Virus record (IMG/VR): IMGVR_UViG_3300022934_000260
Span: 1 to 20,198 of that record
Length of the DNA stretch: 20,198 nucleotides
Reading direction: 5' to 3' (one strand)
Source: a virus
Both the position numbers and the translations under genes were made by a program. The notes under the pieces are model-generated. The model was not told the DNA's origin. It saw only the letters and a program-made list of their open reading frames with translations, and searched no databases. Shown piece by piece: positions 1,680 through 17,900 of the stretch. The first letter of the stretch is position 1. The number at the start of each line of letters is the position of its first letter.

Positions 1680-3113
1680 CTAGCCTTCGCGCAACTGCAC
1701 CTCACGTACAGTCACGAAGTTTGCCGATCCACTGATCACATCCGTTGCGCGTGTGCTGATTGCCGTGTTTGTGATCAAAATCTGCGCTCTGTAGTACAGG
1801 TCACCTGGTAGCAGCGTGTAGGTGTAACTGACTCGATCACGCTGACTTGGATCGATCATCCAGAACTCAGCAGTTGCTTCGGCCTGCTCTGCGGTATTGA
1901 GCAACAAGCGGAGCAAATTGCTTGTACCAACACTGGCGAGCACCTGATCAGCAAGTTCACCAATTTCGCTGCGCGGCGTGATATTCGCATTGTCGTATGG
2001 ATTGGTGCCAGCATCTAGGCTCGCATCGTCGTAATCTGGACCGTAATCGGCAAGGCTTCCTGATGTTCCAATGATGTCCGCTGAGTTGTATGTCAGGTTT
2101 TCTTCAACACCAACGAAGGAGCGTGCATTGGCATAATCATCTCGATTAACGATTGCAGTTGTGCGTGTGTCGACGGACTCACGCTCCACCAAAAAATCCA
2201 AGCTGCCACCGCCTTGAATCAGCGATTTGACGCCATCAAAGAACTGATCGCCAAGTCCCGTCGTGTCGATCTCGTTGCCGTTAAGGCTAAGCTCCCAGCT
2301 CTGCAGCGAACACTCCAGATTCCATTCATTGACCAGCCTTAATTCAATCAAAGTATCTGGCAAAGGATCGCTGAGCTGCACCTCAGTAATTTCAGTCCTT
2401 GGTGTGATATTTGCATTGTCATACGAACTTGCGCCAGCATCCAGACTTGCATCGTCGTAATCCGGCCCATATTCCGAAAGGCTGCCCGATGTTCCAACGA
2501 TGTCGGCTAGCTCATAACTGCAAGATTCAATAACATGCGTAATGCACTGTGCATTCGCATAAGCGCTCAAGCCAGCGCCTTGGTCAATCTTGACGGCATC
2601 AGCAATGGGCAGAAAATCATCAAAATCAATGTTTTCGCGTGTTGCGTCTGACGCTCCAGCCAAAGCAGCAGCCCTAGTTCTATAAAACGAGAGCCTGTTT
2701 AGTTGATCGACGTGTACATAAAGCTGGTTTCGATACGGTTGCTGGTCTGCGGCTGCTGGTTCAATGACAAGAGCATCACCGTCTTGGGTTGTCAGCGGTT
2801 CGTTTTCCTCTGTACTCAACCACCTGAACGGCCTCAACAAGCTTGGCGGATAAGCGACGCTGTAGTCCACAGCTTCGGCCCAGTCCTGATGCTGATACGT
2901 GTTGGCGTACGTCGGGACCAGCCGCGAATCGAAAAGATAGTCGTTAGGCCAGTTGTCAACGCTAGTAACCTCGACAAGATCACCAGTTCTGAAGCTTGGC
3001 GCTGAAAGTAGAACGATATTCTTGTCTTGATTTAGGTCAGTAACTTCAACGACAACAGGTGTTGGCGCCGAGCGGTTGAGGATGACCCTGCCATTGCTGC
3101 CAAGGACTGCCAT
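1680..3113 (-). CDS. Tail structural protein with tube-like C-terminus and duplicated Asp-rich module (477 aa)
   Basis: Probable virion protein without a named family. Residues 1-180 form a beta-rich N-terminal part (GSNGRVILNRSAPTPVVVEV, PSFRTGDLVEVTSVDNW, LYVHVDQLNRLSFYRTRAAA). Residues 203-239 and 345-381 carry two copies of an Asp-rich module with SEYGPDYDDASLDAG or ADYGPDYDDASLDAG and YDNANITPR. From about residue 250 the sequence resembles the tail-tube fold: SLQSWELSLNGNEIDTTGLG, GGGSLDFLVERESVDTRTT, then LPGDLYYRAQILITN and SGSANFVTVREVQL. The second Asp-rich copy sits inside that domain. Asp-rich loops may bind calcium, which is a guess. It overlaps the preceding tube-like gene by TAATG. 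Confidence 0.6.
   Translation of the reverse strand: MAVLGSNGRVILNRSAPTPVVVEVTDLNQDKNIVLLSAPSFRTGDLVEVTSVDNWPNDYLFDSRLVPTYANTYQHQDWAEAVDYSVAYPPSLLRPFRWLSTEENEPLTTQDGDALVIEPAAADQQPYRNQLYVHVDQLNRLSFYRTRAAALAGASDATRENIDFDDFLPIADAVKIDQGAGLSAYANAQCITHVIESCSYELADIVGTSGSLSEYGPDYDDASLDAGASSYDNANITPRTEITEVQLSDPLPDTLIELRLVNEWNLECSLQSWELSLNGNEIDTTGLGDQFFDGVKSLIQGGGSLDFLVERESVDTRTTAIVNRDDYANARSFVGVEENLTYNSADIIGTSGSLADYGPDYDDASLDAGTNPYDNANITPRSEIGELADQVLASVGTSNLLRLLLNTAEQAEATAEFWMIDPSQRDRVSYTYTLLPGDLYYRAQILITNTAISTRATDVISGSANFVTVREVQLREG
1975..2515 (-). repeat. Two diverged direct repeats (about 115 bases each, 426 bases apart)
   Basis: Copies at 2401-2515 and 1975-2089 code for the ADI-V/I-GTSGSL-x-YGPDYDD module of the 477-residue protein. 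The offset is exactly 142 codons. The DNA copies are clearly alignable but differ at many, mostly synonymous, positions, so the duplication is not recent. Confidence 0.85.
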
Positions 3114-3493
3114 TACGCTGCGGTAATGGTCAAGTTACCAGTAAACGTAAATGCGACGTTTGTGCTTGTGACATCACCGACGGTCACGGTTGAACCGACG
3201 CTTGTAATTAGCACGCTGCCGGAGATCGTTTTACCTGTGGTCAACGTCAGCGTTGCGGTGATAGCGCTTTGCGAATCTGTGTTGATCTTGGCGTAAACAT
3301 CATCAAGCAAGCTGTTTTCGTATAACAAAGTTGCGCTACCTGTTGCACCACGCAAGCCTGTGACGTATGTCCTACTGGACTCACCTAAATTCGTGGTCTC
3401 CAGTGTATCGCGTGAAATATCAATACTTGCATCACGAACCACAGCCGTCGAGCCGGCGATCGTAAAACTGCCCGTAGTGCTGGTGACTGCCAT
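3113..3493 (-). CDS. Second tail-tube-like protein (126 aa)
   Basis: A 126-residue protein sharing the tail-tube signature with the major tube protein: DASIDISRDTLETTNLGESS aligns with RSWSLTITKETLDTSVHGDT. Both are followed by a glycine/serine hairpin (GLRGATGSATLLYEN here) and strands ending in a threonine-rich edge (SGSVLITSVGSTVTVGDVTS, FTFTGNLTITAA). It lacks the insertion present in the main tube gene and is shorter by 14 residues. It lies downstream of the hub among receptor-binding genes, which suggests a tip or fibre-base ring and not the tube shaft. The start follows the hairpin gap. The stop overlaps the next ATG (TAATG). Confidence 0.62.
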   Translation of the reverse strand: MAVTSTTGSFTIAGSTAVVRDASIDISRDTLETTNLGESSRTYVTGLRGATGSATLLYENSLLDDVYAKINTDSQSAITATLTLTTGKTISGSVLITSVGSTVTVGDVTSTNVAFTFTGNLTITAA

Positions 3494-3973: not shown

Positions 3974-4909
3974 TTAAGGACTCTCGGGTTCGGACGACTT
4001 AAGAGGTTCAACAATTACTTTACCGTTATCATCAGTCCAGCTTGTGTCATACATATGCTGGTCTTGCCGTTCACCAATTACAAGCCATGAGATCGTATCG
4101 GCGCAAGTATGCTCTTGAGCGGTAATTGTCAATATGTTACCCGTGACAGATCCTTTAACAGCAGTCCAGCCAGTTTCGTTGGTCGTAAAGCACTGCACTT
4201 CTCGGTTTAACGCAGCAAATGTACCTTCTGTCATGCCAGCTGCAGTGTCGATATTTATCGTTGCAGTCCCGCTGGCTAGCTCGACTTTTCCACGATAGAT
4301 ATTGTCTGCTTGTGGGCCTTCAATAAAAGAATGAACTAAGTTATGAGTTTTTGCTTTTTCTAGCAGCGGATGAGTAATCTTAAATGATCCAGAGCCCTTG
4401 CTAAAAGCCCCTACTACATCTACATCTCCGTTTGTATTAATAGTGAAATATGTGGTTCTGTTGGTGCCTACTTTTTTGACGACCCTAAACTCATGACTTG
4501 ATCCTGAAGCTTGACCTATCAACCATTCGGCAACGCCACCGTTGTTGTACAGGTGATACTCTGCGTTACCGCCACCATCTCTGTTGTTCCACAAAAAAAC
4601 TTCACGGCCCATAAGTCTGTATTGGGCAATATATTGACTGTTGTCTTCTAACAGATGCTCTCTTAAATCGCCTACTCCTGTCTTCTTTGTCTCACTTGCA
4701 CTGTCATCATTGATGATTAGCAAATCATCGTTAGCAATATTGTCTGCTGAGAGCGCGTCAAGCGTGGGGATCTCTCCAAATACTGTTGCTTTTATTTGTC
4801 CAATCGTAATTTTAAGTGTTTTTTCCTCACTTGTGTCGCTGATGACAAGTAGGTCATCATCGCTGACAGTTATGATTGGATCTAATGTTGGGATGAATAA
4901 CTTAGGCAT
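3974..4909 (-). CDS. Tail fibre protein with duplicated N-terminal module
   Basis: A 311-residue protein directly behind the hub. Residues 6-45 and 47-87 are two copies of one module: IPTLD, then DDLLVISDTSEEKTLK in the first copy and NDDLLIINDDSASETKK in the second. The DDLL-(V/I)-I-x-D-x-S-x-x-ETKK motif is frequent at fibre N-termini. A beta-rich middle part (FLWNNRDGGGNAEYHLYNNG, WLIGQASGSSHEFRVVKKVG, FTINTNGDVDVVGAFSKG) resembles the repeat before a fibre C-terminal domain. FKITHPLLEKAKTHNLVHSF then opens the terminal domain, of a type found in fibres and other phage surface proteins and possibly trimerising. The end is acidic. The DNA is visibly richer in A and T than the neck genes, as often in exchanged fibre genes. 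Confidence 0.72.
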   Translation of the reverse strand: MPKLFIPTLDPIITVSDDDLLVISDTSEEKTLKITIGQIKATVFGEIPTLDALSADNIANDDLLIINDDSASETKKTGVGDLREHLLEDNSQYIAQYRLMGREVFLWNNRDGGGNAEYHLYNNGGVAEWLIGQASGSSHEFRVVKKVGTNRTTYFTINTNGDVDVVGAFSKGSGSFKITHPLLEKAKTHNLVHSFIEGPQADNIYRGKVELASGTATINIDTAAGMTEGTFAALNREVQCFTTNETGWTAVKGSVTGNILTITAQEHTCADTISWLVIGERQDQHMYDTSWTDDNGKVIVEPLKSSEPESP

Positions 4910-7900
4910 CAGCTCACCTCCCAACTGCTGGCATTGTCAAAATTCACGACGACTTGAGGGATACCGCTGTTGTTCACGGGCATGTGCAACGCTTCAATTG
5001 TAAACGTTCCATCCTCGCCTGCAGTGATCCGCTCGATCTGGTAGGTGCGTGATGCTTTGTTGCTGACGATCTCGGTGAAAACAATGCCCGTGGGCGATGC
5101 TGTGGTGCCGCCGTTAGAGACCGTCAATGTGACGTTGGCTGGATCGCTGCCGGATGTGGGATTCCATGCGTACACGCTGTAGGTGCTATCCGACAGTGAC
5201 TGCGTTGAGATCAATGAACCATCATCAAGCACGACGCCGTTGTTGTACTGGTCGTAATCAGTTGCATCCATCGCAACCTTGATGTAATCGCCAGGCGCAA
5301 TATCGGCAAAAATAGCGTCATAGGTTGTCTTGAATTTGATCGTGTGATCAGGCACACGGCGCATCCTGATCAGGAACTTAGCAGCATCAATTGCATGATC
5401 TCTTGTAGTGCAGTAATCGGTCATGTCCAGCGTTTCAGTGGTGAATGGGTCGTAAGCTGCACCGGCTTCACGCACAAGCACTGATCGCACCACAGAGAAC
5501 ACGCCTTCATTGTTTGTATCGCTGCTGCCGCGCTCTTGCCTGTACTGCACAGCCACTTGGATTGGTTCACGTTCCTCCGGCGCAAGGTAGGAAACCTCGT
5601 AACTGTCCTCAGCGATATTACCAACAGTAAATAGCCCCTTAATGTCTACAGCTGTAAAGTTGCCGCTAGCGTCTGTTGAGAAATACGGCTTCAGTGTGTA
5701 CTTGCCGTTTATTTCTGCAAAGTACAGCAGGTAAGTGGAGGAAATGTCTGCCGCATATTGCCTTAGATTTGACTGCTCTGCAATAACACCGTTAAATCGA
5801 TATTCCCTTCTGTGATTGAAGTTAGCAGCATCTTCAAAACCATCCAAGTCAATCATTTCATCCTTAACAAACTTGCCCATCCCATAACGCTCATTCGTGA
5901 GCAGATCTAAGAGAACATCAGGAAACAGTGAAATTGTGCCTACTGCAAGGTCGGATCGTAGTTGAGGCGCTTGGATTCCTTGCCTGATGTAACCGGAGAA
6001 CTGCGCTAGCTGTTGCCATTCCTGCGATGAGCGAATGTTAATGCCGACCAGTGCCATATTGTCATAGGCAGGTGCCGGGCTGGGGTTTTCGACAATCTCA
6101 TTTACATAAACAATTTCATGCTCTGGTCCGGACTCAGCAGATGCTTTTACCTCTTCATAGGGGAATGATTCCGCAAGCTTCGTGTAAGTGTCGATGTAAT
6201 TTTGATAAGTGTCGCCGTCAATGGTTGTGGCGTCATCAACTTCATACAAGCCGAACAGCTCTTCTGTATCTTCCTCGCCGTTGCCTAGTTTTTTTGTAGT
6301 ATAGTCGTAGTCATTTTCATTAAAATTACCAAAATTGTTCCAGCTAAAGCGTGACGCAAAGCGCGAGGATTTTTCTGAGCCTGTTATCGCGTAACCGTTA
6401 AACTCGCATTTCACCAGCTCGCCGCCAATCGTCGCTTGAAGAGTTGGTGTATACAATCCATCCCTTGCATCCAAAACATACAAAGTTCCCGTGCCACTGC
6501 GTATTTCAAATCCGGCCAACGGTCTGAATCTAAAAATGCGTTGTTTGGCCGTAGGAAATTCAAGCCTAAGGTAGTTGAACTGCGCCTGTTGCGTTTCACC
6601 TGCAAAGCCAAACGTAAAACCTAGCTCCTGCCAATCGCCGTCACTGTCGGCGGCATCCGCAGCTTTGAATTGGATCGTAAAAAACGAATAACGTTGTTCG
6701 CTAGTCGTAATTGTGCTGCTTTCGTAAAACTGACTATCCAATCGCTCGGCCTTTTCGTTTCTAAATGCAGTGCAATATGACGTATCAGCAAATTTGAAAC
6801 TTTTTGCATCCCTGAAGTTGCATAGGTTCGTAATGCGTAGTCCCATCACAGACCTAAAGCCAAACTCAGTTGCAATGCAGGGGCGTGTATTTGTGACTAC
6901 TGCCTGCGCGACTCGCAGAATGTGATCTTTACTTGTAGCAGTCTCGCGCTGTGTCTCATCAGTGCCTGTTTTATTCAAATGTCCTGTTGGGTAAATAGTG
7001 CATGATCCAGCTTCTGTGATGTAGAAATCAACCTCAATATTTTGGGCGTCATCACCCAGCTCATCCGCTTCAGATATAAACGCGCCTTCTGTTCGGGCAA
7101 CACATACGCCATAGGCAGTGCCGATTTTGTAAACTTCGCCAACGATCAATGCTTGGTCGTAAGTTTTCTGCCTAGATGCGACTGCATCAGAAACATCTCC
7201 AAGGCTTTGTTCCGAACGCACCTGTCTGACTCTTCCATTGCCCCAAACTCGTAGAACTTCCGCAGGGCCGAAGTAGCCCTTCACTCTTCCATCGGCGGAA
7301 TTGGGCATTGAATTGATGAAACTTTGATCTGTTGCGGTAAAGATGTCGCCGACTTCAACAGGTACATCTCGGTTATCGCTGTCTTCTACTGAAAGCGTAC
7401 CAAGCGCCCCGGCAAGCCTGGCCCATCTACCGCCATCCCCAGATTCACTGGTTGCCCATCCTTCGTCCATGTTACTACCTATAGCTGTAATTTCGTATCT
7501 ACGGCCTGCTACGCAGTTGTTTACGTCAACGTCGGCAATCAGAGAGTCATAACTGCTGTCTACATAGAATTTATTTCCTATAATGTAGCTTGTTAAATTA
7601 GGAGCGGCGATAAGGTCAAATTCGTCGTCTGTTGTTTGGTAATTTCTATCACCAAAAGAGTTAATTACTTCTTTGTTGGCTTCTGGGTTTTTCTCTTGAA
7701 TTTGATAACGTTCGCCAGCTTGAAGCTCTGTAAGATCTAACAATTCTTGCGGGTCAATAGCAAGAGTAAGCTGATCGCCTTCATTATATGTAACGCCAGA
7801 TGTCCCGGCTAACTCATTCCATTCATCTTGTTCAGTGTTGCTTAGTTCGACTATCTGATATGTCTTGCCTTTTTTGCCATTTTTTACTTTCATTTTGTTG

Positions 7901-9003
7901 CCAAGCGTCTCTGTACTTCTGCCGCTAAACAATTTATATCTGACGTAATCTCCTCTGCTCAGGCTCTGGCTAGTTATGCTGCTTACAGTGCCAGACGCTA
8001 GTCCCCCCTGGGTTGTTGCATGTGCAATAATTCCAGACCTTGATGAGTAGTGGATATTCATTTTTTCTCGGCGGCTTAACTGCTCTTCGTCAATCGGACA
8101 GTTAATTTGAACGCGGCCATCCTTTGTTTTAGGTTTCATCTGGATACTTACAGCCGGTCGTATTGACGGGTTTATGCGATGAACTAAATCATTGCCAATC
8201 AAGCTGTAAACACCAAATGTAGTGTTTGAGCTTGGTTTATGAGTAGCGCAAAAATCAGTTTGTTCGCTGCCACCATAAAAAACACTGAATACATCTCCAG
8301 TTGAAGTAGTGGAAGACGATCCACCGCCGTTAGCGCGTTGGTCTTGTTCACCGCTGCGTCCAAACACTCGATCATCTTGGGTAATTCGACCGCCGTCCTT
8401 GCTAAAATAAATGGTTACGCGAGCTGCTTCTTCCGTCTGTGAGCTGTAGTTAAACTTGTAATTTTTTAGCGAGTTTGACCCAATTGCCCATAAGTCGTTG
8501 TCAACTTCTCCTAAAGTTGATTCACTCAGTAAAAACACAGCTCGCAACATTTGCGACGTGCCGAATGAAATAACTTGAGACCATATCAGTGGCATGTTGA
8601 CGCGAACGCCGCCAACCTTGGCGCCGCCGATTTCGCGTTTCGTGTAAATTAGGGGGATAATTTCCCCTAGCTTTGTAACTTGCTGTGTTGAATCAAAGCC
8701 AAAACGCGGCGCAAAATTAACATTACTTTGAACTGGTTCTTGGCTGATGTCGGTTGTTTTTATTTCGCCCGGTCGCCTTTGTTTTGGTATTGATGGCTTA
8801 AGCAGCAGTGATGCAGCGATCGAGCCAAGGCCAATCACAATGTTAATGATGGCAAGCGTTAAGGCAGTCTCACCCCCCGCCACTGGACCTTCAATCGGGT
8901 TGTCCTTCAGGTGCTGCCGTGCTGCAGCCTGAAACTCAATGAATTCGTCCTCGGTGATGCCGAGCAAGCTGCACAGGTAGCGATCAGATGGAAGCATGTT
9001 CAT
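4909..9003 (-). CDS. J-like tail tip / host specificity protein (central hub)
   Basis: A 1364-residue hub protein that closes the tail and probably contacts the host. The ATG at 9003 is preferred: it makes an ATGA junction with the peptidase stop. An upstream TTG at 9051 would overlap that gene by 52 bases. In order: N-terminal LCSLLGITEDEFIEF segment; a hydrophobic stretch at about 46-68 (ALTLAIINIVIGLGSIAASL); the hub domain starting near KLGEIIPLIYTKREIGG; serine/glycine-rich region; repeated YxI-xx-W-x-LAG modules at about 380-560; a beta-rich lectin-like region at about 660-830; then the conserved J-like part with LFPDVLLDLLTNERYGMGKF and the closing MRRVPDHTIKFKTTYDAIFA and a beta-sandwich. 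Hydrophobic stretches of this kind in J proteins may insert in membranes. Confidence 0.85.
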   Translation of the reverse strand: MNMLPSDRYLCSLLGITEDEFIEFQAAARQHLKDNPIEGPVAGGETALTLAIINIVIGLGSIAASLLLKPSIPKQRRPGEIKTTDISQEPVQSNVNFAPRFGFDSTQQVTKLGEIIPLIYTKREIGGAKVGGVRVNMPLIWSQVISFGTSQMLRAVFLLSESTLGEVDNDLWAIGSNSLKNYKFNYSSQTEEAARVTIYFSKDGGRITQDDRVFGRSGEQDQRANGGGSSSTTSTGDVFSVFYGGSEQTDFCATHKPSSNTTFGVYSLIGNDLVHRINPSIRPAVSIQMKPKTKDGRVQINCPIDEEQLSRREKMNIHYSSRSGIIAHATTQGGLASGTVSSITSQSLSRGDYVRYKLFSGRSTETLGNKMKVKNGKKGKTYQIVELSNTEQDEWNELAGTSGVTYNEGDQLTLAIDPQELLDLTELQAGERYQIQEKNPEANKEVINSFGDRNYQTTDDEFDLIAAPNLTSYIIGNKFYVDSSYDSLIADVDVNNCVAGRRYEITAIGSNMDEGWATSESGDGGRWARLAGALGTLSVEDSDNRDVPVEVGDIFTATDQSFINSMPNSADGRVKGYFGPAEVLRVWGNGRVRQVRSEQSLGDVSDAVASRQKTYDQALIVGEVYKIGTAYGVCVARTEGAFISEADELGDDAQNIEVDFYITEAGSCTIYPTGHLNKTGTDETQRETATSKDHILRVAQAVVTNTRPCIATEFGFRSVMGLRITNLCNFRDAKSFKFADTSYCTAFRNEKAERLDSQFYESSTITTSEQRYSFFTIQFKAADAADSDGDWQELGFTFGFAGETQQAQFNYLRLEFPTAKQRIFRFRPLAGFEIRSGTGTLYVLDARDGLYTPTLQATIGGELVKCEFNGYAITGSEKSSRFASRFSWNNFGNFNENDYDYTTKKLGNGEEDTEELFGLYEVDDATTIDGDTYQNYIDTYTKLAESFPYEEVKASAESGPEHEIVYVNEIVENPSPAPAYDNMALVGINIRSSQEWQQLAQFSGYIRQGIQAPQLRSDLAVGTISLFPDVLLDLLTNERYGMGKFVKDEMIDLDGFEDAANFNHRREYRFNGVIAEQSNLRQYAADISSTYLLYFAEINGKYTLKPYFSTDASGNFTAVDIKGLFTVGNIAEDSYEVSYLAPEEREPIQVAVQYRQERGSSDTNNEGVFSVVRSVLVREAGAAYDPFTTETLDMTDYCTTRDHAIDAAKFLIRMRRVPDHTIKFKTTYDAIFADIAPGDYIKVAMDATDYDQYNNGVVLDDGSLISTQSLSDSTYSVYAWNPTSGSDPANVTLTVSNGGTTASPTGIVFTEIVSNKASRTYQIERITAGEDGTFTIEALHMPVNNSGIPQVVVNFDNASSWEVS
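4915..4922 (-). promoter_or_regulatory. Strong ribosome binding site for the fibre gene
   Basis: GGGAGGTG lies inside the last codons of the hub gene. Seven bases separate GGAGG from the ATG at 4909, which forms TGATG with the hub stop. This site decides the fibre start: the in-frame TTG at 4924 would overlap the Shine-Dalgarno sequence itself. Confidence 0.8.
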
Positions 9004-9371
9004 CGAAATGTTCTGTACTCTCGGTGCGCGACTTTTCTGTTTGGCAGCCAATGCACGCCACGCTTATGGTGCGGGAATAGCAAGCCTTCATCCACAATAA
9101 TACCTAAGCCCATGTGGGCAGGCTCTTCAAACAATGTCAACGCATATTCCTGCTGCGGACATGGCTTAGTGCGTTCTAGCCACTGCTGCTTCAGTGCAGC
9201 CCATTCTCCACGCGCTGCCATCTTCAGCCAGCTTTCGTTGTAAGGCGGATGATCAACACCAGCATCACGCAGGACGTTCCAGGTCATGATCACGCAATCA
9301 CAAGCAACACCATCATCTGGATCAGCGCCAAACTGATGCGGCAATCCTAGGTAGTGATGCCAACGTTTCAT
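9000..9371 (-). CDS. NlpC/P60-like tail peptidase (gpK-like)
   Basis: A 123-residue cysteine-hydrolase-like protein just before the J-like hub, as gpK is in lambda. FGADPDDGVACDCVIMTW carries the DC motif, with Cys26 the predicted nucleophile. EEPAHMGLGIIVDEGLLFPH provides the HxGI-like motif, with His86 as predicted catalytic histidine, and a later histidine near HHKRGVHWLP could be the third residue. Proteins of this type probably cut peptidoglycan cross-links or assist tip assembly. It is short: the JAB/Mov34 domain present in lambda gpK is missing. It overlaps the previous gene by ATGA, and its stop TGA overlaps the ATG of the hub gene at 9003. Confidence 0.72.
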   Translation of the reverse strand: MKRWHHYLGLPHQFGADPDDGVACDCVIMTWNVLRDAGVDHPPYNESWLKMAARGEWAALKQQWLERTKPCPQQEYALTLFEEPAHMGLGIIVDEGLLFPHHKRGVHWLPNRKVAHREYRTFR

Positions 9372-9865
9372 GAGATGCTTATGTTGCCGGTAGTTGGCAA
9401 TGCGCCGACAAGCCCTTCGGTAATGCGACGATTCGGCACTTGGCCTTGCACTGCATCCAGCGGTGAGATCAATCGCAGTTTGATTGCTGTTGTGTCCATG
9501 TCATAGGAGGCAACACGCCAGGTTTCCTCTGAAATTAACTGATCATCTGCAAGGCTGCTGACGTTGAGGCTTACAGTTTCGACAACCAACAGCCAACGCT
9601 CTTCAACGGCTTGCTTAAATAAATTGAGGATTATGGTTGAGCCTGCTACAGCTGACGCACCAATCGCCAGCACATTACTGCTCCTGTCACCACCCTTTTC
9701 ACCACCGCCTGTCGATAGCGCAAACGGCGCAAAGGTGTAAGTGTTGCCGCCTCTGGAGCGTGTGCCGTTAATTGTAAAGTTTTGGAAGTAATACGACGTG
9801 TCAACATAAGATGAGCCGCTTGGCTTGCGGAATTTTACATAGTTGCAAAAAGCGTATCCGCTCAT
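9368..9865 (-). CDS. Minor tail protein, gpL-like
   Basis: A 165-residue protein between tape measure and tail peptidase, the place of lambda genes M and L, with ATGA overlaps on both sides. Features visible: a beta-rich N-terminal half with YYFQNFTINGTRSRGGNTYT and FAPFALSTGGGEKGGDRSS, then VEERWLLVVETVSLN, a SEETWRVASYDMDTTAIKLR strand pair and a closing LDAVQGQVPNRRITEGLVG. The LDAV-x-G-x-(V/F)P-x-R ending is shared with tail-tip proteins that connect tube and hub. lambda gpL binds an iron-sulphur cluster through cysteines. Here there is only one cysteine (residue 7), so no such cluster is expected. A distal-tail adaptor role is inferred. Confidence 0.6.
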   Translation of the reverse strand: MSGYAFCNYVKFRKPSGSSYVDTSYYFQNFTINGTRSRGGNTYTFAPFALSTGGGEKGGDRSSNVLAIGASAVAGSTIILNLFKQAVEERWLLVVETVSLNVSSLADDQLISEETWRVASYDMDTTAIKLRLISPLDAVQGQVPNRRITEGLVGALPTTGNISIS

Positions 9866-12800
9866 GCCAGGCCAACCTTACGTCTTGATTTTACGCTATT
9901 CTGCAACGCTTGCAGCGTGAGTGCACGACCGCGTTCAGCAGCCTGCGCCATGCCTTGACGATGCTGCTCAGCGGTGACGTACTCGACATTGTTGATCACG
10001 CTGGATTCGTACCGCACATCGATCGGATTTGGGCTTGCCATCATCGCAAGGGATGTGCGTTCCACTTCGCGGATGCGGTTTGTCGTCATTGTATTTTGCT
10101 GTTTGATGAGCTGCTGACGAGTAGCTTCATTGCTACGCATTATAGTATTTTGCTGTTTAATGAGCTGTTGACGAGTAGTTTCATTGCTACGCATTACAGC
10201 ATCTTGCTGTTCGAGTTTGTCGCGAGTAGCGCTATCACGCAGCACAGCATCCTGCTGCTCGAGCTGCTGACGAATAGCCTCATTGCTGCGCAGCACAGCG
10301 TCCTGCTGTTCAAGTTGTTCACGAGTAGCGCTATCACGCAGCACAGCATCCTGCTGCTCGAGTTTGCTGCGAGTAGCGCTATCACTCATCACGGCATCTT
10401 GCTGTTTGAGCTGCTGACGAGTAGCGCTATCACTCATCACAGCATCCTGCTGCTCAAGTTTTTCGCGAGCAGCGCTATCACTCATCACAGCATCTTGCTG
10501 TTTGAGCCTGTCACGGGTGGCGCTATCACTCAGCGCATCATCTTGCTGTTTGAGCCTGTCACGGGTGGCGCTATCACTCATCACAGCATCTTGCTGCTCA
10601 AGTTTTTCGCGGGTGGCGTTATCACCCATCACAGCGTCTTGCTGCTCAAGTTTTTCGCGGGTGTCGTTATTCGATAGCACCATGCCACTACTGAATGGCA
10701 TGAACAACTCAGGGCCGCGTTCACCGACGATGTAAGGCTGGTTTGCGTTGACGGGGCCACCGTTGGCGCGAGCACCGAATAGGCCAGCAGCATTGAAGGA
10801 TGACGGCGAGCTAAATCCTGACGCACCAGGCACGGCTTGATCAAAATTGCCCATATCTCCGAACTTAGTTCCGCCTGACAATCCTGCAAATGCCTTTGCA
10901 ATGCCAATTGCAATATAGGTTGCGATCATTCTTGCGCCTTCTTGCGCCAAAACCTGACCAACGCTTTTGAGCATGTTGGCAAAAACATCTTTAACTTTTT
11001 CGCTGCCTTCGATTAAACCTTGAATACCGTTGACGAGTGAACTTGAAATGGCACTTCCTACGCCTTGAGAAACGTTAATAGCAACTTGCTCAAGATCCTT
11101 GAGTGAATCTTGCGAATCGCTAATAAACTGCTGCAGCTTGCCTTGATCTTGCTTGAACAAACTGGCGAAATCCATTTTGAAAGCTTCTTGCAACCTTTCA
11201 TCTCTTGCCTCAATAGTTGCTAAATTTTCTTGATCCAGCCTATTTCTTTCGGCAAGGTTTAATAACTCTTCCCGCTGCCTTTCAGCAACGTTTGCATTTA
11301 TATTTGCTACAACATCTTCATGATTGAATTTAATTCTAAGCAGCTCGCGTTCAAGGTCATTTGACGCATTGCGTAAGTTAATTTCACGCTGCAATTGTTT
11401 CGCAATACGTTCACCGGCGGCTAATTGATCTTTCAATATATCTTCTGCGCTGGGTCCACGCCCTGCACGGCCGCCAGCAGTGCCACCGCCAGAACCGCCG
11501 CCGCCGACTGAAGGTTTAAAAGCCTCAGGTTCCTTATAAGTGCCATTGGCGCGTGCAATAGCCTCACGAATGCCAGCTTGGTCGAGAACATCAAACCCAA
11601 CAGCCTTGCCCCCCGCTGCCTTTGCTTGCGCCTCAACATCAGCAGCAATCTGACTGGCAGCAATTTCTAAGTTTACCCGAACGTCATAAACACCTTCTAA
11701 AGCTTCCAGCTGGCGCCTTAGCTCTTCGACTTCCTTCCTTTGTGCCTCTGTTGCTCTTTTGCTTGAAAGCGACGATTCGCGAAGTTTGTCTAGCTTGACA
11801 GCTGCTGCTTCAAGCTCAGCCTTTTTAGCGCTAACAGCATCTTTAAGTTCTGTTGACTCAACAGTTGAATCATTAAGCAGCTTGTTTAATTTGGCTTGAT
11901 CTGCGTAATACTTAATAACAACAGCAGAAAGACCAACAAAAGCTGCAGCACCCAACGCAATGGGATTTAGCAGTGCTGCCATGGCTCCAGCAAGGCCGCC
12001 AGCTCCTAGCTTGTAGGCCACCAATTCAATTAAAGGAGCTGCTGTCTTAAATGCCACTGCAAAGCCACCGACAGCGATGCCGGCGGCGGCAGCGGCAGCA
12101 CCAATGTCGCGTATTGGTTTGGGTAGCTCAGATGCAGCCTTCAATGTTGCATTCAGCCCATCAACTAATGGCTGCAATACAACAATGAACTTATCGCCAA
12201 TTGCGTTGGTGGTGTTCTCAACGTTACCACCTAGCACTTTCATGCTGTCAGAGAATCCACGCATCTCTTCGCGGACCTGTTCTGTTTTGCCTTGCGAGTT
12301 TTCGATTGTTTGAAACATGCTGCGAATCTTCTCTTCACTGCTTGCCAGCAATGCCTGGAATCCGCGCCCCGCTTCTTCGCCAAACAATGCCTTGGTTAGC
12401 TCAACGCGTTGGCCGACATTTAACTGATCGAGGCTACCCTTAAGCGCAAGAAGTACCTCGTCAAGTGGTTTAAGGTTGCCCTCTGCGTCTAGCACTTGAC
12501 TGCCTAATGTATCCATCGCTTTGGTCAGCATTGCGCTACCACGCGTGATCTCAAACAATGCTTCTTGGCTGCCGGATGCTGCAAGCTGCAGCCGATTCAA
12601 GCCAGTTGACAGCGATGTACCGGCTCGGCTGCCGCGAATGCCATTATCAGCAAGAAGGCCAATCGTTGCAGATAGATCGCCAATACTGATTCCAAGCGTT
12701 CGCGCACCTGGCGCTGCGTAACTCAACGCTTCGCCAAGATCAAGGATTGTCTGGTTTGAACTGTTAGCAGCTTGCACCAACGTGTCAACCACTGACGCGG

Positions 12801-13434
12801 TGCCTGACGTGGCCAGCCCAAATGCACGCAAGCTGGATGATACGATGTCGCCAAGCTGATCAAATGCAACGCTTGTTGCCTCGGCACCAGTGACGATACC
12901 TTGCAGTGATTCGCTGGTTTCTTGTGCGGTAAAGCCAGCGCGACTCAATGATGTGGCAAGTGCCGCCACTTCTGTTGGCGTACCTGCTGCTGTTGATGCA
13001 ACGCGTTCGATTGATTGCCGTAGCTGATCTAGGTTGCCGCCGCCTTCGATCGCGGCAGCACGACGCAGCTCCTGTTCAAAGCCTGCAGCGGTGCGCGTAA
13101 TGCCTGATGTAACTCGACCAGCGCCGGCCGTTGCCGCCAGCTTGGTCATGGTGCCAATCAGGCTACGAGCTGCCGTGTCTTGCTTCTTGATCCCTGCTGC
13201 CGCTGCTTCAGCGCTGGTGACAAACTGCCCATTAACCTTTCGCGCTCGGCCTGCTGCATCCGTGAAATACCGCATCCCATTGGCTGCAGTCTTTATTTCA
13301 CGCCCAGCTTTTGTGGTTGCAGATGTAACGCCCTTCGTTGCAGTCTCTAATTTTTTGGATTCATCACTTGCCTTTTTAAGTGATTGGACTGCATTCCGTG
13401 CGTCAACCCTTAGCTCAACGTTGGATACTGCCAC
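9862..13434 (-). CDS. Tail tape measure protein
   Basis: A 1190-residue protein that sets tail length and is extruded with the DNA. GTG start (MAVSNVELRVDARNAVQSL). In order: helical N-terminus (1-100); a TP901-type tape-measure core at about 110-430 with TPTEVAALATSLSRAGFTAQ and IGDLSATIGLLADNGIRGS; alanine/glycine-rich hydrophobic segments at about 443-510; charged coiled coils at about 515-590 and 660-750, separated by a glycine linker; a hydrophobic segment at about 790-850; the PYIVGERGPELFMPFSSG motif at about 900-917; twelve repeats at 922-1118; and a conserved-looking end (INNVEYVTAEQHRQGMAQAA, then a basic tail). At the family rule of about 0.15 nm per residue the tail would be near 0.18 micrometre. 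The stop overlaps the next gene (ATGA). Confidence 0.92.
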   Translation of the reverse strand: MAVSNVELRVDARNAVQSLKKASDESKKLETATKGVTSATTKAGREIKTAANGMRYFTDAAGRARKVNGQFVTSAEAAAAGIKKQDTAARSLIGTMTKLAATAGAGRVTSGITRTAAGFEQELRRAAAIEGGGNLDQLRQSIERVASTAAGTPTEVAALATSLSRAGFTAQETSESLQGIVTGAEATSVAFDQLGDIVSSSLRAFGLATSGTASVVDTLVQAANSSNQTILDLGEALSYAAPGARTLGISIGDLSATIGLLADNGIRGSRAGTSLSTGLNRLQLAASGSQEALFEITRGSAMLTKAMDTLGSQVLDAEGNLKPLDEVLLALKGSLDQLNVGQRVELTKALFGEEAGRGFQALLASSEEKIRSMFQTIENSQGKTEQVREEMRGFSDSMKVLGGNVENTTNAIGDKFIVVLQPLVDGLNATLKAASELPKPIRDIGAAAAAAGIAVGGFAVAFKTAAPLIELVAYKLGAGGLAGAMAALLNPIALGAAAFVGLSAVVIKYYADQAKLNKLLNDSTVESTELKDAVSAKKAELEAAAVKLDKLRESSLSSKRATEAQRKEVEELRRQLEALEGVYDVRVNLEIAASQIAADVEAQAKAAGGKAVGFDVLDQAGIREAIARANGTYKEPEAFKPSVGGGGSGGGTAGGRAGRGPSAEDILKDQLAAGERIAKQLQREINLRNASNDLERELLRIKFNHEDVVANINANVAERQREELLNLAERNRLDQENLATIEARDERLQEAFKMDFASLFKQDQGKLQQFISDSQDSLKDLEQVAINVSQGVGSAISSSLVNGIQGLIEGSEKVKDVFANMLKSVGQVLAQEGARMIATYIAIGIAKAFAGLSGGTKFGDMGNFDQAVPGASGFSSPSSFNAAGLFGARANGGPVNANQPYIVGERGPELFMPFSSGMVLSNNDTREKLEQQDAVMGDNATREKLEQQDAVMSDSATRDRLKQQDDALSDSATRDRLKQQDAVMSDSAAREKLEQQDAVMSDSATRQQLKQQDAVMSDSATRSKLEQQDAVLRDSATREQLEQQDAVLRSNEAIRQQLEQQDAVLRDSATRDKLEQQDAVMRSNETTRQQLIKQQNTIMRSNEATRQQLIKQQNTMTTNRIREVERTSLAMMASPNPIDVRYESSVINNVEYVTAEQHRQGMAQAAERGRALTLQALQNSVKSRRKVGLA
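10081..10671 (-). repeat. Twelve tandem 48-54-base in-frame repeats in the tape measure gene
   Basis: Codes for residues 922-1118. Nine units are 16 residues long (model ATREKLEQQDAVMSDS). One is 17 and two are 18 residues, carrying SNEA or SNET in place of DS and an IKQQNT variant. Units differ by a few substitutions (EKLEQ, DRLKQ, RQQLK, DKLEQ), and the DNA is similar but not identical, so the array is not newly amplified. It also creates long spurious open frames on the opposite strand. Confidence 0.9.
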
Positions 13435-13459
13435 GGCTTACTCAAGCGATGTCTACATC

Positions 13460-13983
13460 TTAACGACGGCCAGCCTTAGCACGATCCATCGCTTCCTTTT
13501 CACGTTCTGCCTTCAATTCGTAAAATGCTGCAAAATGAATGAACTCCGCATCGGTCAGTTCCGTGCGGAGCTTGCTTACTGTCATTCCTAGTTCGCAGGC
13601 CAGGAAAAACTCAAAGTTGAGCCAACTGTCCTGCTTCAGTCGTTTTTTGCTTCTTCAATCCCAGCATCCTCACCCAACCCAAACAAGAACAGCTCAAGTT
13701 CGTTCAGCACAGACTCCGGCAACCGACGCTGTAGCTTCGGTGCATCAGCAGACGCAAACGCCTTGCTACCGTCTTCCAGCTCAGCCATCTGACACAGCAT
13801 CTGGGTGCTGATGTCTAGTGCATCATCAGTACCGGCAAGGCTTTGTGCTTTCTTGCGATCCGCACGGGTGATTGGCTTGAAGTACAGATCAACAACCTTT
13901 TTGCCGTCTGCATTCTTCAGCTCAAACTTACGGCGCTGGTTAAGGTCAAATGCCTCAACCAGCAAGTCAACTGTTCGGGCCAT
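13460..13983 (-). CDS. Tail assembly chaperone, frameshifted long form (gpGT-like, 174 aa)
   Basis: Produced when ribosomes slip -1 on A AAA AAC at 13642-13648, three residues before the end of the short form. The first 114 residues are those of the short form. After the slip the frame reads RLKQDSWLNFEFFLACELGM and continues through EFIHFAAFYELKAEREKEAM to a TAA at 13460-13462, adding 60 residues. The extension is a charged helical domain with two aromatic-rich helices, like the T part of lambda gpGT, which binds the tape measure protein. The extension has no start codon at its beginning. The tape measure gene follows 25 bases later. The frame, slip site and gene order all agree, so confidence is high without experimental data. 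Confidence 0.85.
13636..13983 (-). CDS. Tail assembly chaperone, short form (gpG-like)
   Basis: A 115-residue product of the unshifted frame. It matches lambda gpG-like chaperones in position (between tube and tape measure), size and character: beta-rich N-terminus with FELKNADGKKVVDLYFKPIT, a helical middle (ADRKKAQSLAG, DISTQMLCQMAELEDG) and an acidic C-terminus (LFLFGLGEDAGIEEAKND). It would coat the tape measure protein and recruit tube subunits during assembly, and is absent from the mature virion in known systems. The last codons contain the A AAA AAC slip site that yields the longer form. No clear ribosome binding site precedes the start, which lies directly behind the terminator-like U run. 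Confidence 0.8.
   Translation of the reverse strand: MARTVDLLVEAFDLNQRRKFELKNADGKKVVDLYFKPITRADRKKAQSLAGTDDALDISTQMLCQMAELEDGSKAFASADAPKLQRRLPESVLNELELFLFGLGEDAGIEEAKND
13642..13648 (-). other. Programmed -1 frameshift heptamer A AAA AAC
   Basis: Codons GCA AAA AAC place the heptamer in the canonical X XXY YYZ register of the short-chaperone frame. Both tRNAs can re-pair after a one-base backward slip. The zero-frame stop TGA follows one codon later (GAC TGA). The -1 frame is open for 60 codons beyond it. No obvious stem-loop stimulator was identified by eye downstream. Confidence 0.85.
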
Positions 13984-14020: not shown

Positions 14021-14443
14021 TTATTCCAAGTTAGAAGTAATCGTGCCGGAGGTCACGAAGCTGCAGGATACGATCACCAGCTCGCCAACAGTGGAAGTGA
14101 TTTCCATGTCAGTGATGATGCCCGCGAAACTTACGGAGTCGGTGCCAGTGGCGGTGCCACTGGTGAACAGCTCAAAGGTTGCATCTGCAGGGTCTGCAGT
14201 TGTCACCACATCTTCAAGGAAACCAGCTTGGCCGGTAGCATCTGGATCGTAAACCAGTTCAACGGTGCCAGAGCCGGACACCATACTGCCAGCAAAGCTG
14301 CGGAAGGTGTCGCCATGGACACTGGTGTCCAGCGTTTCTTTGGTAATCGTCAGGCTCCAACTGCGGGTGCCGACGATTGTGGCGTTATTGGAGCCTGCGG
14401 CATCAAATTGAACAGCGCCCTGTTCACCGCGAAGAGTAGCCAT
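14021..14443 (-). CDS. Major tail tube protein
   Basis: A 140-residue protein that polymerises into the tail tube. The signature RSWSLTITKETLDTSVHGDT, followed by a GSMVSGSGTVELVYDPD hairpin and a C-terminal VSFAGIITDMEITSTVGELV sheet, matches the tail-tube beta-sandwich. The context is tail terminator upstream, chaperone pair and tape measure downstream. A GAGGAA Shine-Dalgarno-like sequence precedes the ATG at 14443, one of the stronger sites in the window, as expected for an abundant virion protein. A terminator-like hairpin lies 7 bases after the TAA. Two further proteins with the same signature are encoded at 3113-3493 and 1680-3113. Confidence 0.85.
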   Translation of the reverse strand: MATLRGEQGAVQFDAAGSNNATIVGTRSWSLTITKETLDTSVHGDTFRSFAGSMVSGSGTVELVYDPDATGQAGFLEDVVTTADPADATFELFTSGTATGTDSVSFAGIITDMEITSTVGELVIVSCSFVTSGTITSNLE

Positions 14444-17165: not shown

Positions 17166-17900
17166 TCAGCTCCGGGTGACGTAGAGGGTGACCTTCAAGC
17201 CAGCGCCTGCGGTGCCGCTGCCCACCTGGTCAATGTCGATCGTGATCTCGGCGTCATCCGCCAGGGCTGAATCTGAGATCACCGGAGGCGTTGCTGCTGT
17301 ATCGCTTGTTTTCTCTCCGTCGTCAATGCTCAGCTTCGTGCTCAACACCGACGTGCCAGCTTCGTTGATGTCAACGATCAACGCACTGCCAACTGGAGCG
17401 GTCGTGGCCGTGGCCTTTACTGCCGTTAGCGTGCCGGCAGTGGGCATCCTGAACGTGACCTTCGCGGTGCCTGTGGTGAGCGCCGTGGTTTCATCACTGC
17501 AGGCAATCACATAAATATCATCAGCCCCGACCCATGCTGTGTCGTAGTCGGTTCCGCTTGACTTCTTCAGCAACTGCCCTGTTGTTCCACCTGCGGGAAT
17601 CCCTACCCCGTCCGCGCCATCCGTGCCGTCAGCACCATCGGCGCCGTCAGCACCAGCAGGGCCTGTCGCGCCCGTTGCACCTGTTGGGCCTTGGGGGCCA
17701 ACCAGCGTGCCAAGGTTGTCCCAAGCGCTGCCGTCCCAGACGTAAAAGACTCCCGTGTCTTCCGCCTGGTAGACATCCCCCGTCGTGGCGCCGCCGGGAA
17801 GCGCGGCCTCATTGGCGACGGTGCCAAGTACATTCAGGGCACTGATTGACGGCCCAGTTTCGTCAAGAGCGCCCGTAAATGGATTGAACTTATAGCCCAT
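17166..17900 (-). CDS. Collagen-like fibre protein (probable head or neck fibre)
   Basis: A 244-residue virion fibre candidate. The N-terminus MGYKFNPFTGALDE is a common phage fibre anchor. Residues 28-67 hold a GDVYQAEDTGVFYVWDG-type module frequent in appendage proteins. Residues 68-100 form eleven uninterrupted G-X-Y triplets (GPQGPTGATGATGPAG, then GAD repeats), expected to make a collagen-like triple helix. An IPAGGTTGQLLKK linker follows, then a C-terminal beta domain of about 115 residues ending in KVTLYVTRS, probably a trimeric knob. A GGAG sequence precedes the ATG at 17900. It lies among neck genes and not with the tail-tip fibres. Decoration of head or neck is therefore inferred, with glycan or cell-surface binding possible. 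Confidence 0.75.
   Translation of the reverse strand: MGYKFNPFTGALDETGPSISALNVLGTVANEAALPGGATTGDVYQAEDTGVFYVWDGSAWDNLGTLVGPQGPTGATGATGPAGADGADGADGTDGADGVGIPAGGTTGQLLKKSSGTDYDTAWVGADDIYVIACSDETTALTTGTAKVTFRMPTAGTLTAVKATATTAPVGSALIVDINEAGTSVLSTKLSIDDGEKTSDTAATPPVISDSALADDAEITIDIDQVGSGTAGAGLKVTLYVTRS
17601..17699 (-). repeat. Collagen-like G-X-Y repeat, 11 triplets
   Basis: Codes for residues 68-100 of the fibre protein. Glycine occupies every third position for 33 residues. Alanine and aspartate dominate the other positions in the second half (GAD, GAD, GAD, GTD, GAD), and the DNA is correspondingly GC-rich and internally repetitive. Confidence 0.9.

Follow-up and report, generated by a model that had tools for sequence, protein, structure and literature searches.

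The window analysed here, meaning the whole stretch of DNA under study, is an entire IMG/VR virus record of 20,198 bases. Its minus strand carries, in order, genes for the major capsid protein (MCP), head-tail adaptor, head closure, neck, tail terminator, major tail protein (MTP), a G-like chaperone, the tail tape measure protein (TMP), two small tail-tip proteins and a gpJ-like protein, and the gene order of the TMP class (tail terminator, MTP, G/GT chaperone, TMP, tip genes) was thus found. The TMP gene (9862..13434, minus strand) starts with GTG, encodes 1190 amino acids and matches PF10145 (1e-33) and PHROG tape measure families (to 7e-65). It adjoins the gene for a gpG-like tail assembly chaperone (13636..13983, minus strand; phrog_20784). 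At the end of the chaperone gene (13434-13983, minus strand) lies a slippery A AAA AAC followed by an open −1 frame (RLKQDSWLNFEFFLACELGMTVSKLRTELTDAEFIHFAAFYELKAE...) to about 13460, and the two together are a predicted programmed frameshift of the lambda G/GT type, which would yield the GT extension. On the other side of the TMP gene are the two tail-tip genes (9368..9865 and 9000..9371, both minus strand) and the gene for the gpJ-like central tail protein (4909..9051, minus strand; phrog_27845, phrog_31), all three of which are co-inherited with the C-terminal module of the TMP.

The MCP is closest to those of Synechococcus phages S-H1 (79%) and KBS-S-2A (73%), and therefore a cyanobacterial host is likely. 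Elsewhere on the minus strand, a tail-fibre-like protein (17166-17900) contains a collagen-like GPQGPTGATGATGPAGADGADGADG run, a protein with no PHROG match (1680-3113) contains an internal duplication of about 43 amino acids (ADIVGTSGSLSEYGPDYDDASLDAG...YDNANITPRTEI), and a second MTP-like gene (3113-3493; phrog_10528, 5e-8) lies far downstream of the usual MTP gene at 14021-14443.

Near its C-terminus, the TMP contains an array of twelve units of 16 to 18 residues of the TREKLEQQDAVMSDSA type (10069..10662, minus strand; TMP residues 925-1122). A sequence-only reading of this DNA had described such an array at 10671..10081 with three longer units, and the analysis confirmed it at 10662..10069, the longer units being units 8, 10 and 11. 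The unit lengths in order are 16, 16, 16, 16, 16, 16, 16, 17, 16, 17, 18 and 18 amino acids, the end of the last unit being arbitrary. As that reading had also stated, the array sits between the GERGPELF motif (residue 904) and a C-terminal stretch, which proved to be kept in relatives. A conserved GGPVNANQPYIVGERGPELFMPFSSGMVLSNND tract (10663..10795, minus strand) precedes the array. Tandem Repeats Finder scored the array at 583/447/200. Residue identity within it is 0.53 at a lag of 16 and 0.43 at a lag of 32, compared to a highest value of 0.198 in 2000 shuffles over all lags from 5 to 39; in the rest of the TMP the lag identity is at most 0.153, except in one window that overlaps the array.

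The DNA identity between units is mostly 64-97%, and the longest exact repeat in the array is 42 bp. Five residues (R2, L5, Q7, Q8 and D9) are invariant across units 1-10, and the units are under purifying selection, with a pN/pS of 0.23 for their first 12 codons and of about 0.31 when 16 codons are counted. The 198 residues include no aromatic residue (F/W/Y), no proline and only one glycine, with a net charge of −5. A 255-amino-acid open frame runs antisense to the array (9910-10677, plus strand) and is probably a by-product of the codon usage of the repeat.

The period of 16 is not a heptad, as had been pointed out from the sequence. The hydrophobic moment of the array peaks at 67-68 degrees and is 0.056 at 100 degrees. 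A heptad or hendecad coiled coil, for which a peak near 100-103 (or 98) degrees would be expected, was considered and rejected. With hydrophobic residues recurring at ~67 degrees per residue and not at 100, the array is unlikely to form a continuous coiled coil. AlphaFold2, run with 25 relatives, predicted that the array is almost wholly alpha-helical, with a pLDDT of about 90 in the second half and 45-60 in the first half, in a monomer model of low overall confidence (pTM 0.22). A second AlphaFold run, on the linker of a relative with two units (L009), gave a helix through both units at low confidence (pLDDT 60.8). In the first model, the C-terminal module (9865..10068, minus strand; TMP residues 1123-1190), which is kept behind unrelated TMP bodies, forms a short beta-hairpin followed by a helix. 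The GERGPEL tract has a weak profile match (E 0.013) to a solved TMP chain of the lambda type.

More than 80 loci were gathered by scanning viral contigs with the TMP, its C-terminal module and the last units of the array. The number of units is 12 in the window, 11 in L002, 5 in L004 and L028, 4 in L006, 2 in L009-L019, L021-L027 and L029-L031, and 1 in L020; L071 and others have three 13-mers in the linker. Degenerate DNA patterns for the units retrieved no further contigs besides L002, L004 and L006. Conservation of the same 12-unit array in distant relatives was not seen among the relatives compared. The linker with two units is the commonest form among relatives with this type of linker and is probably ancestral. 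Given this prevalence, the simplest origin of the long array would be the expansion of a linker with two units.

The sequence-only reading had also described relatives as having only a short linker at this position. This holds for most, as the median distance from GERG to EYVT is 84 amino acids at 74 loci, but not for L060 and L067, which have a linker of 247 amino acids, a length like that of the window, without this array. Behind other linkers, the same C-terminal module follows ERSYADRLRETRE repeats, Ser/Asn-rich repeats or non-repetitive stretches of up to 247 amino acids. Since such different sequences occur with one C-terminal module, the linker position evidently tolerates them. Unrelated short tandem repeats (GGSSNVSNSY, ERSYADRLRETRE, FQGNSTSVSNA, NSFQRGGNSSVS) occupy the same linker position in L038, L039, L041, L046, L052 and L078. 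A shorter TMP body compensating for a longer array was rejected as an explanation, as body length and array length are not correlated (r = 0.10); total tape length is therefore evidently not constant.

These linkers bear on two other explanations of the array. According to the first, the array is a neutral expansion, produced by slippage and unequal exchange at a place where almost any in-frame filler is tolerated, with no benefit of its own. The many unrelated linkers at the same position, several with short tandem repeats of their own, and a nearly identical pair of genomes (the window and L002) that differ by one unit are consistent with this, but the pN/pS of 0.23-0.31 and the five invariant residues indicate that the unit sequence is constrained, and we consider a purely neutral origin unlikely. 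According to the second, which the sequence-only reading had offered, each unit would bind one tail assembly chaperone (the G/GT-like protein encoded at 13636-13983, together with its frameshift extension), so that the array would act as a ladder. Against the regular spacing of the units, the selective constraint on their invariant residues and the neighbouring chaperone gene with its frameshift extension stand the complete lack of aromatic residues in 198 amino acids and the finding that L003, L038 and L060 have a chaperone homologue but other linkers without these units. The proposal is further weakened by homologous TMPs that fill the position with unrelated Ser/Asn-rich or other sequences, and it now appears very improbable.

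The comparison with L002, a metagenomic relative, provides the strongest evidence for gain and loss of units in a population. Over all of L002 (4,920 bases), the two sequences differ by two substitutions and by one 48-bp unit missing from L002, which the alignment places at 10309..10356 (minus strand), spanning units 7 and 8. An error of assembly, in which short reads were joined into a wrong number of units, should be weighed here, as the 42-bp longest exact repeat is near the k-mer range of assemblers. However, the units are mostly 64-97% identical, and arrays of 4, 5, 11 and 12 units are found on independent contigs. Furthermore, the flanks of the L002 deletion share only about 8 bp and the 42-bp repeat is not used, so the missing unit is unlikely to result from identical k-mers being collapsed. 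An artefact is accordingly the least credible of the explanations discussed here. Collectively, the one-unit difference and the series of 12, 11, 5, 4, 2 and 1 units support the suggestion that units are gained and lost by DNA recombination, and on this evidence the array would be a fast-changing spacer.

The array also lies where TMPs of different origin meet, a point that the sequence-only reading had not considered. Almost every locus has a match (66-100%) to the last 68 TMP residues, and in nearly all loci that are long enough these residues are found together with the genes at 9368, 9000 and 4909. The TMP body, MTP and MCP are often without a match in those loci, some of which are on contigs too short to show them. 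Since the C-terminal 68 residues travel with the tip genes, while the body, MTP and MCP often do not, the C-terminus of the TMP appears to belong with the tail tip. Searches with the C-terminal module gave no match in isolated phages and no confirmed relative in cellular genomes.

In several pairs, DNA comparison locates the joints of such exchanges inside the array. Downstream from position 10263, inside unit 9 (10228..10275, minus strand), the identity between the window and L006 is 98.5%, and their upstream bodies are unrelated at the DNA level. For L004 and L011, the identity is 99.7% from unit 4 of L004 on. Between the window and L004, the adjoining body DNA is 93.7% identical up to unit 3, and the proteins of the tip genes beyond are only 44-52% alike. 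Other TMP pairs have their exchange joints clustered in the conserved tract that precedes the array. Overall, the upstream ends of shared DNA in all locus pairs were grouped by hand into 13 exchange events, since automatic clustering merged loci with differing bodies. Of these events, 10 lie in the stretch from the GERGPEL tract to the C-terminal module, which makes up about 10% of the TMP, for a rough binomial value of 1e-8; this figure is indicative only, as the grouping was manual and the loci were picked by their C-terminal module. In addition, the first ~550 TMP residues (11785-13434, minus strand) are about 88% identical to those of L003 (95-99% over much of this length) and the rest is unrelated, a pattern that would be a second exchange joint in mid-body.

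Such joints allow the array to be read as a recombination adapter, in which 48-bp units join TMP bodies and tip modules of different phages in frame at many registers, the size of the array would record past swaps between body and tip, and tail length would change with the new tip. We regard this as possible but doubtful.

The explanation that we favor, and hold to be reasonably probable, is that the array is a hydrophilic, mostly helical spacer of variable length in the tape rod, located before the tip-anchoring C-terminal module at the seam of body and tip, with whole units gained or lost in frame by recombination at ~2.4 nm per unit. Recombination between units would add or remove whole units of 16 codons and so keep the frame. 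The array would then lie at the seam where, in this phage group, one set of tip genes becomes joined to tape bodies of different kinds. The TMPs of phages lambda and JBD30 form trimers, and the tail tip holds their C-termini (PMC10721106, PMC11445458). In TP901-1, deletions in the TMP shorten the tail proportionally, and the phage requires the C-terminal ~60 amino acids (PMC5099701). The window TMP is most likely built in a similar way, with the C-terminal module anchoring the tape to its own tip proteins in the tail tip, and the array may form the rod just above this anchor. The sequences establish the array itself, its varying copy number, the selection on its units, the co-inheritance of the C-terminal module with the tip genes and the exchange joints inside the array, whereas the helical rod in the virion, the anchoring at the tip and an effect of the array on tail length are inferred. 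A lengthening of the tail, which the sequence-only reading had offered, is plausible.

As a helix, one unit would measure 16 × 0.15 nm = 2.4 nm and the whole block about 30 nm, equivalent to some 7 rings. In JBD30, 45 discs make up 180 nm of tail, so that each disc accounts for 4.0 nm (PMC11445458). If the block lies within the tube, the tube would gain about 0.6 ring per unit; as one unit is less than one ring, the tails of the window phage and L002 should differ by zero or one ring. TMP cleavage in JBD30 is proposed 92 residues from the end (PMC11445458). A similar cleavage here would cut close to where the array ends and so leave the larger part of it attached to the tape.

Alternatively, the tube may not count the block at all. 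The block would then exit the tip at infection right behind the C-terminal anchor and reach partway across the periplasm or cell wall of the host, and the number of units would tune reach and not tail length. The hydrophilic, predicted helical array is positioned directly before the C-terminal module, and the C-terminal domain of the JBD30 TMP is proposed to be the first to leave the baseplate (PMC11445458), but the JBD30 tube is filled by the TMP through most of its length, so that extra residues would normally be counted. This role in reach is therefore improbable in our estimate.

Compared to other TMPs, that of the window has several distinctive features. First, the TMP of TP901-1 (Mahony 2016, PMC5099701) also contains tandem units, which its authors propose to ease gain and loss of tape length; however, these are 29 units of 11/18 amino acids with aromatic marks, whereas the window array has units of 16-18 amino acids without aromatics directly before the C-terminal module. 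Second, the 11-residue TMP repeats of clostridial and staphylococcal prophages (Belcaid 2011, PMC3271669), which have a history of duplication and loss, resemble the window array in their variable unit number but differ in having a period of 11 (or 11-11-18) and W/F marks, compared to a period of 16, no aromatics and a place beside the C-terminal module. Third, lambda gpH and JBD30 gp46 (PMC10721106, PMC11445458) belong to the lambda/JBD30/T5 type of TMP, whose C-terminal helix lies in the tip lumen and touches tip proteins. The window TMP may resemble them in this respect, given its predicted hairpin plus helix and the co-inheritance of the C-terminal module with the tip genes, but no repeat array homologous to that of the window was found in them. 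Finally, the TMPs of Synechococcus phages S-H1 and KBS-S-2A, which are of the same phage type as the window and contain the GERGPELF tract, have a short unrelated C-terminus after this motif and no array. Thus, TMP repeats of variable copy number are already known, and what is new here is the period, the absence of aromatics and the place at the tip seam.

The window and L002 represent a natural, nearly isogenic pair with 12 and 11 units, and the relatives extend it to a graded series of 1, 2, 4, 5, 11 and 12 units within a single type of TMP linker, at a place where tape bodies and tip modules are exchanged. This pair and series would make it testable whether a phage ruler counts units smaller than a ring (about 2.4 nm compared to about 4 nm) and by what means a tail stays functional after tips and tapes have been swapped between lineages.
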